From the NCBI GenBank assembly GCA_017621475.1, contig JAGATA010000010.1:1-64000 (forward strand): 64,000 nucleotides of DNA. Reading direction: 5' to 3'. A program made the position numbers and the translations under genes. Under the pieces are notes generated by a model. The model searched no databases, was not told the origin of the DNA, and was given only the letters and a program-made list of their open reading frames with translations. Of this stretch, positions 57,197-59,782 are shown piece after piece. This stretch comes from Clostridia bacterium. GTDB taxonomy: Bacteria; Bacillota; Clostridia; Oscillospirales; CAG-272. The first letter of the stretch is position 1. Every line of letters starts with the position of its first letter.

Positions 57197-57387
57197 TATT
57201 TTGTCCTCCTATAAAAATTCGAGATAGCTATCTTGTGATTTTATTATAACACAAGCAAATTCAACTTACAATAGTATTAAAATTGAGTTTACGTTGAAAA
57301 GTTCAACCCAAGGTTGTATTTATAAAGTAACTCAAAACCGCATCTTTCATATAATGTATTAGTTTTATATTGGAGGTGCAATAATTT

Positions 57388-57798
57388 ATGAACAGAAACG
57401 ACCCTGAAATGTCCTACGGCAAATTCGGCGTGCGCGCTTTTGCCGCAAACTCCGCCTACCCCGTGGAGAACGCGCTCGTTATAGTGCGCGGCAAAAAAGC
57501 AGACGGCGCACCCGCAACTATCGCGGTGCTTGAAACGGACGAAAGCGGAAAAACGCAGGTAATAACCCTTCCCACACCGCCCAAGAGCCTTTCCCTTTCC
57601 CCCGGCTCGGATATCCCACCTTATGCTCTTTACGATGTGGAGATAACCCACCCGGGTTTTTACTCCATCATCACGCGCGACGTGCAGATATACCCCGACA
57701 CAACTTCCATACTCCCAATAAACATGCTCCCGCTTCCCGACACGGGGGACACAAGCAACATCATAGTCAACGACGGCGGTGCCGCCCCGAACCTGTAA
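57388..57798 (+). CDS. Small beta-sandwich protein of the peptidoglycan-binding cluster
   Basis: 136 aa, unknown function. GKFGVRAFAANSAYPVENALVIVRGKK and LETDESGKTQVITLPTP look like a transthyretin/carboxypeptidase-regulatory fold. No signal peptide. The C-terminus is Pro/Asn-rich. GGAGGTG precedes the ATG; ten bases before the next gene. A CATATAAT box 35 bases upstream could be a mother-cell sigma promoter (tentative). Confidence 0.75.
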   Translation: MNRNDPEMSYGKFGVRAFAANSAYPVENALVIVRGKKADGAPATIAVLETDESGKTQVITLPTPPKSLSLSPGSDIPPYALYDVEITHPGFYSIITRDVQIYPDTTSILPINMLPLPDTGDTSNIIVNDGGAAPNL

Positions 57799-57807
57799 GG
57801 AGGCGTT

Positions 57808-59202
57808 ATGGCAACCTTACCCGTAATTCCCGAAAACATAACCGTTCACTTGGGCGCGCCGGGCTCGAACGCGCAAAACGTGACGGTCAGCTTCATTGAC
57901 TATATAAAAAACGTGGCATCAAGTGAAATTTACCCCACCTGGCCCGAAAACGCCCTGCGCGCCAATATCTACGCGCAAATATCATTTGCGCTCAACAGAA
58001 TATATACGGAGTATTACCGTTCCCGCGGGTACGATTTCGATATAACAAACTCCACGGCAATAGACCAATCCTTCGTCTACGGGCGCGACATCTTCGATAA
58101 TATCAGCGAGATAGTTGACGATATTTTCAACGATTACATAGTGCGCGGCGGCTTTGTGGAGCCGCTTTACGCGCTGTATTGCGACGGAACGACCGTCACC
58201 TGCAACGGGCTTTCCCAATGGGGCAGCGTTGACCTTGCGGAACAAGGCTATATTCCCTATGACATTCTGCGCTATTACTATGGGGATGACATAAACATCG
58301 TTATGGATGCACCGATAGAAAATATAAGCGCGTCCTATCCCGGTGTGCCGCTTTCGCTCGGCTCCGCAGGAAACGACGTGCGCACGGTGCAAACAAGGCT
58401 TAACAGAATTTCTGCAAATTATCCCGCCATACCCAAAATATCGAACCCAAGCGGTATTTTTTCCACGGAGACAGACGCCGCCGTGCGCGCTTTTCAAGAG
58501 ATATTCAGCCTGACAGCGGATGGCATCGTGGGAAAAGCGACGTGGTACAAAATACAATCCATTTACAACGCCGTTAAAAAGCTAAACGAGCTTGAAAGTG
58601 AGGGGCTTACACTTTCTGAGGTTTCCAAGCAGTTCAGCGGCACGCTCGCAGAGGGGGACACAGGAATCGAGGTTGCCGTTGTGCAGTATTATCTTCGCGT
58701 TATAGCGGATTTCAATCCGACTATCCCACCAGTCACGCCGAACGGCGTTTTTGACGGGCAAACAAAAAACGCCGTACTCGCTTTCCAGCGCGAGTACGGA
58801 CTTCCTCAAACGGGAGAGGCAGACGAGGAAACGTGGAATAAGCTTGCAAGCGTTTACCTGGGGCTTATAGCAAGCGCGGAAAACTCAGGCGCGGGCATTG
58901 CCGCAGAAGTTTTCCCGGGTGCTCTGCTCTCGCTCGGCTCTGCGGGAGAGGATGTTGAGCTTTTGCAAACGTATCTTAACACCGTGGCAGAGGTTTATAC
59001 GGAAATACCGACGGTTACCGCAAACGGCAATTTCGACGAGGCAACGGACAGAGCCGTGCGAATCTTCCAAGGCATTTTCGGAATACCGCAAAGCGGCGTT
59101 GTAGGGCCTATAACCTGGGAAATACTCGCGGAGAAATATGCGGAGATAGAAAACGGCAAAATTCGCGCAGAGTTTCAAAACCCCGGCGATATAACAACTT
59201 AA
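57808..59202 (+). CDS. SpoIID-like peptidoglycan-binding protein
   Basis: 464 aa. Residues about 45-160 (YPTWPENALRANIYAQISFALNRIYTEYY) resemble the SpoIID/LytB domain. Three peptidoglycan-binding_1 repeats follow, each ending like AVRAFQEIFSLTADGIVGKATWYKI, AVLAFQREYGLPQTGEADEETWNKL and AVRIFQGIFGIPQSGVVGPITWEIL. There is no signal peptide, which is unusual for wall-binding proteins; deposition on the spore from the mother cell is an inference. Confidence 0.82.
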   Translation: MATLPVIPENITVHLGAPGSNAQNVTVSFIDYIKNVASSEIYPTWPENALRANIYAQISFALNRIYTEYYRSRGYDFDITNSTAIDQSFVYGRDIFDNISEIVDDIFNDYIVRGGFVEPLYALYCDGTTVTCNGLSQWGSVDLAEQGYIPYDILRYYYGDDINIVMDAPIENISASYPGVPLSLGSAGNDVRTVQTRLNRISANYPAIPKISNPSGIFSTETDAAVRAFQEIFSLTADGIVGKATWYKIQSIYNAVKKLNELESEGLTLSEVSKQFSGTLAEGDTGIEVAVVQYYLRVIADFNPTIPPVTPNGVFDGQTKNAVLAFQREYGLPQTGEADEETWNKLASVYLGLIASAENSGAGIAAEVFPGALLSLGSAGEDVELLQTYLNTVAEVYTEIPTVTANGNFDEATDRAVRIFQGIFGIPQSGVVGPITWEILAEKYAEIENGKIRAEFQNPGDITT

Positions 59203-59218
59203 TTATGGAGGAAAACAT

Positions 59219-59740
59219 ATGGCAGAACCGACAAAAGAAATATACGAGCTTCAATATATGCTGCGCAAAATAGCGCTCACCACGGGGGAAGTTCCGCTTA
59301 TTACGCCCGACGGCATATACGATGCGGTAACGCGCGAGGCGGTGCGCACATTTCAAGCATCAAACTCTCTTGAGCCCACGGGAAACTTAAACAAAGAAAC
59401 GTGGGACAGCATTTTTGAAAAATATAAGGAAAGCGTTTATGCTTCCTCCGTAGGAGAGCCCATCTACCCATTTACCGACCCGTCATATACATCCTCCGAA
59501 GGGGAGCGAAGTGACATTATCACGCTTATACAGCTCATTCTTTCCGCACTTTCGGTAATATACGATGATTTTGAAGAGATAGAGATAACAGGCGTAAACG
59601 ATGAAGCGACGGTCGCCGCCCTTAAAAGGTTTCAATCCTACCACAGGCTTCCCGAAACGGGCGTGCTTGACAAGCGCACCTGGGATGCCGCAGCAAAAAG
59701 CTTTAATGCATATTACAGCAACCCGAATTATACGGCGTGA
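59219..59740 (+). CDS. Two-repeat peptidoglycan-binding protein
   Basis: 173 aa. Two peptidoglycan-binding_1 repeats (AVRTFQASNSLEPTGNLNKETWDSI and ALKRFQSYHRLPETGVLDKRTWDAA) and little else; no signal peptide. Starts 16 bases behind its neighbour, with GGAGG. Ends before a terminator. Confidence 0.82.
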   Translation: MAEPTKEIYELQYMLRKIALTTGEVPLITPDGIYDAVTREAVRTFQASNSLEPTGNLNKETWDSIFEKYKESVYASSVGEPIYPFTDPSYTSSEGERSDIITLIQLILSALSVIYDDFEEIEITGVNDEATVAALKRFQSYHRLPETGVLDKRTWDAAAKSFNAYYSNPNYTA

Positions 59741-59750
59741 TTAAACATAA

Positions 59751-59782
59751 AAAGTGGGCTGGAATGACTCAGCCCACTTTTT
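59751..59782 (+). terminator. Terminator of the peptidoglycan-binding cluster
   Basis: AAAGTGGGCTG and CAGCCCACTTT with an eight-base loop, then T run. Confidence 0.9.

Follow-up and report, generated by a model that had tools for sequence, protein, structure and literature searches.

A spore cortex-lytic enzyme of the SleC2 type that appears to be split over separate genes in a Clostridia bacterium

The stretch of DNA analysed here (the window: 64,000 nucleotides of contig JAGATA010000010.1 of a Clostridia bacterium) contains a cluster of three genes, g1, g2 and g3, at positions 57388-59740, which is best read as encoding a spore cortex-lytic enzyme of the SleC2 type in split form. This work suggests that the cluster probably encodes such an enzyme, made in the mother cell, provided with its propeptide in trans, and switched on without cleavage by the protease Csp. 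The first-pass annotation of this DNA had described an unsecreted peptidoglycan-binding cluster; the split SleC-type enzyme is our main result and goes beyond what was seen there.

The identification comes from the relationship of g1 and g2 to a single chain, that of PDB entry 9h68, which is listed as the C. difficile SleC zymogen, the pre-pro-form of the spore cortex-lytic enzyme. Residues 5-261 of g2 align to residues 217-475 of this chain with E=2.5e-73 (phmmer), and 9h68 was also the top match in a structure search with Foldseek (E=9.5e-23, 49% identity), in which the g2 model was of moderate quality (mean predicted local distance difference test score (pLDDT) 75, predicted template modelling score 0.47). 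The g1 sequence alone matched the earlier part of the same chain with E=2.3e-5, and a g1 profile (A1, 27 sequences) matched its propeptide part with E=1.4e-19. When the fold of the g1 model was searched, 9h68 was the best PDB match (E=1.8e-9, template modelling score 0.75), and transthyretins ranked behind it. Since g1 and g2 correspond to neighbouring segments of a single chain, the cluster appears to be a SleC zymogen split over genes, with the propeptide (g1) and the enzyme (g2) predicted to be encoded separately and extra binding domains added. The start of g2 is not equated here with the Csp cut site of SleC.

All three genes run in the same direction on the plus strand, with intergenic gaps of 9 nucleotides (g1-g2) and 16 nucleotides (g2-g3). 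The g1 open reading frame (ORF; 57388..57798, 136 amino acids) encodes a separate SleC propeptide-type protein, predicted to be a seven-stranded beta-sandwich (mean pLDDT 88). The g2 ORF (57808..59202, 464 amino acids) encodes a SleC-type catalytic domain (approximately residues 1-176) and three peptidoglycan-binding domains of the PG_binding_1 family, at 58369..58551 (E=2.7e-15), 58666..58845 (E=2.2e-14) and 58945..59127 (E=4.3e-13), and the g3 ORF (59219..59740, 173 amino acids) encodes two more, at 59234..59410 (E=5.8e-14) and 59519..59689 (E=2.3e-12). All five exceed the Pfam cut-off, and they are the only ones found in a search of the entire 1.98 Mb genome. The SpoIID domain of g2 lies slightly below the Pfam cut-off (21.8 versus 23 bits), and SpoIID/LytB models of NCBIfam also match g2 below their cut-offs. 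No hydrophobic N-terminal stretch was found in g1, g2 or g3, whose Kyte-Doolittle maxima over 15-residue windows are 0.93, 0.93 and 0.87, and a value of at least 1.8 was reached by only 1 of 57 relatives of g1, 0 of 36 of g2 and 0 of 21 of g3. Thus, the five peptidoglycan-binding repeats, the SpoIID-like domain (for which the SleC match is the strongest evidence), the lack of signal peptides and the adjoining beta-sandwich protein, all of which had been claimed in the first-pass annotation, were borne out.

When domain scans were applied to related loci, canonical SleC, here SleC1, was found as a propeptide, a catalytic domain and one peptidoglycan-binding domain in a single ORF (31 ORFs, of which 25 were in the tree described below). 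A longer single-ORF type, with a propeptide and a catalytic domain followed by two to five peptidoglycan-binding domains, was found in five genomes: there are five such domains in G321 (843 amino acids) and G213 (800 amino acids), four in G376, and two before the fetched stretch ends in G347 and G050. This long form fits SleC2a and SleC2b of C. botulinum group II, which are described, in the accessible part of the report, as products of a second sleC-like gene with a SpoIID/LytB domain and 4-5 binding domains in approximately 792 or 698 amino acids and with a function reported as unknown (PMC5083711). Taken jointly, g1, g2 and g3 have the same domain list as SleC2, including the 4-5 binding domains supplied by g2 and g3, and differ from it in being three ORFs rather than one; no split form is described in that part of the report. 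With SleC1 (C. difficile 9h68 and C. perfringens), the cluster shares the homologous propeptide beta-sandwich, the SpoIID-type catalytic domain, in which the invariant residues, the conserved glutamate among them, are the same, a peptidoglycan-binding domain, the lack of a signal peptide and, by consensus only, a sigma-K-type promoter. In contrast to the cluster, SleC1 is one polypeptide with a conserved linker and a single, C-terminal binding domain, is accompanied by Csp in the same genome and forms a separate clade (100/100).

This placement is based on a maximum likelihood tree of 94 sequences comprising the catalytic and first peptidoglycan-binding domains, which was rooted at its midpoint so that the direction of change is left unset. 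All 25 SleC1 sequences share one side of a branch with support of 100/100, with the window sequence outside, and all 64 split sequences lie on one side of a branch with support of 99/92. The five long forms fall between the split group and SleC1 and do not form a single group. The notion that the split form is SleC simply cut at the Csp site was replaced, on the basis of this tree, by that of an old division between SleC1 and a longer SleC2 type, and the cluster is best read as the split form of the latter. Among other known systems, SpoIID (PDB 5i1t and 4rwr) shares the catalytic fold and the glutamate motif with g2 in weak matches, but it is an engulfment enzyme and SleC is by far the better match. 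SleB and CwlJ also lyse the cortex at germination, and SleB (6tci) has the same kind of binding domain, but their catalytic domain (PF07486) is a different one and is not in this cluster. A literature search, outside which most subscription journals lay, returned no description of a split SleC; SleC2a and SleC2b alone came near.

The conservation of the split was analysed in two samples, one of 146 genomes from the window's family and one of 341 genomes from its class (the class sample). A g2-like sequence was found in 132 of the 146 family genomes and the g1 profile matched 130, with the propeptide lying in a canonical SleC ORF (416-462 amino acids) in 12 of these, in a longer fusion in one (G050), and in a separate frame in 117, as assigned by frame length and position unless the locus was opened. 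Named loci were found by pattern and by tblastn with g2, as the best 80 of 584 matches, and are a biased draw; in these, g2 has three binding domains in 80 of 80, and domain scans placed a separate g1 ORF just 5' of g2 in 79, the remaining locus starting at a contig end. An ORF with peptidoglycan-binding domains follows 3' of g2 in 66 of the 80 (61 with two domains and 5 with one), while 13 have none there and one meets a contig end. The propeptide profile matched 69 of the 341 class-sample genomes, and the loci that were opened contain the split operon in 36 genomes from 12 families, including the window's own; weak propeptide matches (14 of the 69 genomes, at most 41.6 bits) and G420, with a strong match in an unopened locus, were left out of the counts of split and fused forms. 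Three weak matches that were opened (L196-L198) had no catalytic gene within the fetched stretch. Cultured carriers include Ructibacterium gallinarum DSM 107454, in which g2 had no g3 next to it, and Monoglobus pectinilyticus.

The relationship between Csp and the type of SleC was also analysed, with Csp sought by its prodomain profile PF18425 alone and the subtilase domain not part of the search. Within the family, Csp was above the cut-off in 12 genomes, which are exactly the 12 SleC1 genomes; a weak match in G058 (L208) showed no Csp domain on opening. SleC1 is present in all 16 Csp genomes of the class sample (15 opened, and G347 judged by frame length), and Csp was missing in 35 of the 36 opened split genomes, the exception being G297. 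This profile had no match in the window's genome. A linker motif of the type [YF]xxKx[PA]E, which was picked after inspection of the sequences, is present in 31 of 31 SleC1 ORFs (six of them second copies), in none of the five long forms, and in none of 333 split ends (g1 tails and g2 heads, repeats included). YabG, which trims pre-pro-SleC in C. difficile according to the available text of the source (PMC10681294), was found in 0 of 146 family genomes, in a search that matched the B. subtilis positive control.

It has been reported that sigma-K and sigma-E promoters of C. difficile have a common -10 element and differ at -35 (AC versus ATA) and that sleC is sigma-K dependent, as far as the excerpted source goes (PMC3789822). 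The first-pass annotation had noted a box 5' of the operon, and this box, CATATAAT at 57348-57355, is indeed preceded at a distance of 16 nucleotides by AC at 57330-57331, so that sequence and conservation point to a sigma-K-type promoter at 57330..57355 on the plus strand. The 110 loci of the window and its relatives yielded 106 g1 starts and 94 unique upstream regions, of which 74, versus 18.9 expected, have CATANNNT 5' of g1. The combination AC-N14-18-CATANNNT occurs in 56 of the 94 regions, compared with a mean of 4.7 and a maximum of 11 in shuffled sequences and with 3 in the reverse complements. When 70 regions were aligned on the -10 element alone, AC peaked at spacers of 16 and 17 nucleotides (28 and 21 of 70, against a background of approximately 4) and ATA had no peak. 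Because AC rather than ATA is found at -35, the conserved promoter AC-N16/17-CATANNNT is, by consensus, of the sigma-K type and not of the sigma-E type. A scan for sigma-70 promoters returned no plus-strand site at the CATATAAT box.

The cluster is also linked to sporulation. The window's genome carries Spo0A, SpoIVA, SpoIVB and SpoIIR. SpoIVA was found in 117 of 130 family genomes with g1 versus 4 of 16 without it, and at least one of SpoIVA, SpoIVB and SpoIIR in 129 of 130 versus 4 of 16 (p=2e-13), where SpoIVB and SpoIIR were tested only in 29 genomes that were discordant or lacked g1. The single g1 genome without a marker is G031, and G013, G051, G053 and G076 have sporulation markers but no g1 match, possibly owing to an assembly gap. 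Dependence on sigma-E or sigma-K and confinement to spore formers had been proposed as checks of the earlier claim that the proteins are deposited on the cortex or coat by the mother cell; the promoter type and the markers (12 of the 16 genomes without g1 have none) agree with both, and deposition of this kind is further supported by analogy with the homologue SleC, which is located at the spore cortex/coat in the available account (PMC10681294). Vegetative secretion was rejected in view of the lack of a signal-like stretch and the linkage to sporulation.

Residue conservation at the presumed active site was also analysed. Glu40 of g2 (codon at 57925..57927, plus strand), presumed to be catalytic from its correspondence to the catalytic glutamate of SpoIID, is kept in 87 of 88 sequences (25 SleC1, 58 main split and 4 of 5 long), and all 88 have Trp45, Asn53 and Trp138. 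In the family genomes that have SleC1 and Csp, all six split copies, from two genera, have A, Q or T in place of Glu40 and have also lost Trp138 and other core residues. These decayed operons (L187-L192 in G040, G046, G098, G102, G141 and G145) stand beside intact SleC1 and Csp and resemble pseudoenzymes retained as operons. Among all SleC2-type copies in this alignment, 7 of the 10 found in genomes with SleC1 have lost Glu40, versus 0 of 53 in genomes that lack SleC1 (Fisher p=2e-7, which overstates independence because the losses represent approximately three lineages; the count excludes six named loci for which the SleC1 status was not known), and G297, G213 and G347 retain Glu40 beside SleC1. 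Our reading of this pattern is that SleC1 and Csp may relieve the split enzyme of its duty.

These results suggest how the split enzyme may work. The mother cell would make the three proteins at a late stage of sporulation, using the sigma-K-type promoter, and would place them on the cortex, as with SleC, with no Sec signal involved. There, g2 would be a lytic transglycosylase of the SleC/SpoIID type anchored by its three peptidoglycan-binding domains, g3 would serve as an added anchor with two further domains, and g1, the propeptide as a protein of its own, would most likely bind g2 non-covalently and keep it inactive in the dormant spore, or aid its folding. The natural fusions in SleC1 and in long SleC2 argue that these parts work together. 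Because g1 and g2 have no bond or linker between them and Csp was undetected, release of g1 rather than proteolysis by Csp should be the switch in germination, the peptide bond that Csp cuts being absent from the outset. More tentatively, and with less confidence than we place in the split SleC2-type enzyme itself, we propose a zymogen split at the genome level, stored as a complex of two or three proteins with the propeptide in trans and activated by dissociation at germination without Csp proteolysis.

Several observations weigh against the reading as a split SleC2-type enzyme. In vitro, cortex fragments are degraded by C. difficile SleC at its full length, according to the part of the source available (PMC4619724), and therefore even the canonical propeptide may be no simple inhibitor; inhibition of g2 by g1 is a prediction from sequence. 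A hydrolase of the SleB/CwlJ type (PF07486) is encoded by the genome of the window, as it is by 105 of 146 family genomes, so that the split operon need not be the sole cortex-lytic enzyme. Split g2 was found in 12 of 20 listed genomes without PF07486 (20 of 41 such genomes), and in these the operon may therefore be the main cortex enzyme. The absence of Csp depends on a single prodomain profile that does not cover the subtilase domain, and two genomes with canonical SleC, G407 and G376, also have no Csp by this profile. Conversely, in the split genome G297, Glu40 is intact although both Csp and SleC1 are encoded there. The long SleC2 form also has no linker and sometimes no Csp (G321 and G050), and the split is thus not the only Csp-free form. 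Finally, g3 does not adjoin g2 in 13 of the 80 named loci.

Other explanations of the cluster were considered. CwlC and CwlH, the sigma-K amidases of B. subtilis, are a model for a late, unsecreted lytic set that dissolves the wall of the mother cell to release the completed spore, and the sigma-K-type promoter and the lack of signal peptides would fit such a role equally well. It would also accommodate the fusion of g1 to an unsecreted Amidase_3 domain in four genomes from two genera (G081, G056, G109 and G125; E=6e-39 to 2e-43). We nevertheless consider mother-cell lysis unlikely, as the closest characterised relative by far is SleC, a germination enzyme required for cortex degradation by both C. 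difficile and C. perfringens according to the accessible part of the source (PMC3567191), and genomes with Csp and SleC1 mostly have no intact split copy, Glu40 decaying where SleC1 is present. A slightly poorer prospect is a structural role, in which the proteins would have no enzymatic activity and would tie the coat to the cortex through their five peptidoglycan-binding domains. The number of these domains suits such an anchor, as does the persistence of six copies, in two family genera, as operons despite the loss of Glu40, Trp138 and other core residues, but where the genome has no SleC1, all 53 copies retain Glu40, and Trp45, Asn53 and Trp138 are invariant in the 88 SleC1, long and main split sequences; the decayed copies look exceptional.

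Alternatively, an undetected subtilase or another spore protease could degrade g1 at germination, which would retain the usual logic of SleC with a chain that is already cut. The search for Csp by its prodomain profile alone leaves room for such a protease, and two SleC1 genomes also have no PF18425 match; however, the propeptide-enzyme linker found in all 31 SleC1 ORFs is absent and YabG is absent from 146 of 146 family genomes, and we regard protease activation as improbable, marginally more so than the structural role. That the cluster is a frameshifted or misassembled ordinary sleC gene, for which only the split itself speaks, is scarcely credible and was rejected, because the ORFs are separate in 79 of the 80 named loci and the split recurs across 12 families, and because the linker is missing outright rather than merely interrupted. 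We retain the split SleC2-type enzyme as the preferred reading.

Further features of the locus are a ribosome-binding site, GGAGG, of g1 at 57372..57376 and a terminator-like hairpin of 14 pairs 3' of g3 at 59749..59782, both read from the plus-strand sequence; a tRNA search was negative. An origin of the cluster from phage or plasmid was dismissed, as the phage matches with a coverage of g2 of at least 80% come from faecal records that carry no annotation and have 42-55% identity and the plasmid matches with that coverage are records of Monoglobus and Subdoligranulum. These phage records (GenBank MT838825, MT836287, MT837020, MT835563 and MT836301, labelled 'Bacteriophage sp.') carry g2-like genes and are perhaps misassigned bacterial contigs. 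Among the variants encountered, g1 of Monoglobus pectinilyticus (NZ_OY725736.1; L219, 2329-3465) has a long Asn/Gln-rich N-terminal extension, with 378 amino acids in total, and similar extensions were seen in L140 and L155. The Amidase_3 domain of the four fusions (L210-L213) has no signal peptide and is N-terminal to the g1 domain, upstream of a normal g2. At L193, L194 and L195, in genomes with SleC1 and Csp (G047, G063 and G103), a propeptide-type ORF stands by itself, and no catalytic gene was seen within the stretch that was fetched (two of the stretches are cut by contig ends). In G313 and G394 (L179:821-4060 and L180:795-3995), Csp and canonical SleC are joined in one ORF of approximately 1070-1080 amino acids, a tethered protease and substrate.

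Most of what is understood about the germination of clostridial spores comes from the Csp-SleC cascade of C. difficile and C. perfringens. The split, Csp-free form was commoner than this cascade in both samples: in the class sample, 36 opened genomes have the split form versus 18 that have canonical SleC, and in the family the numbers are approximately 117 (by frame length) versus 12. Should the split form be the cortex enzyme that does the work, activation as described in textbooks would be inapplicable to much of the spore-forming gut flora, and the split would provide a minimal two-protein system for asking how the propeptide restrains SleC. How the spores of many gut Clostridia, in which Csp was undetected by the prodomain profile, activate the split enzyme thus becomes a testable question, and a genome-split zymogen, if true, would be a Csp-free switch for cortex lysis common to many of these bacteria.
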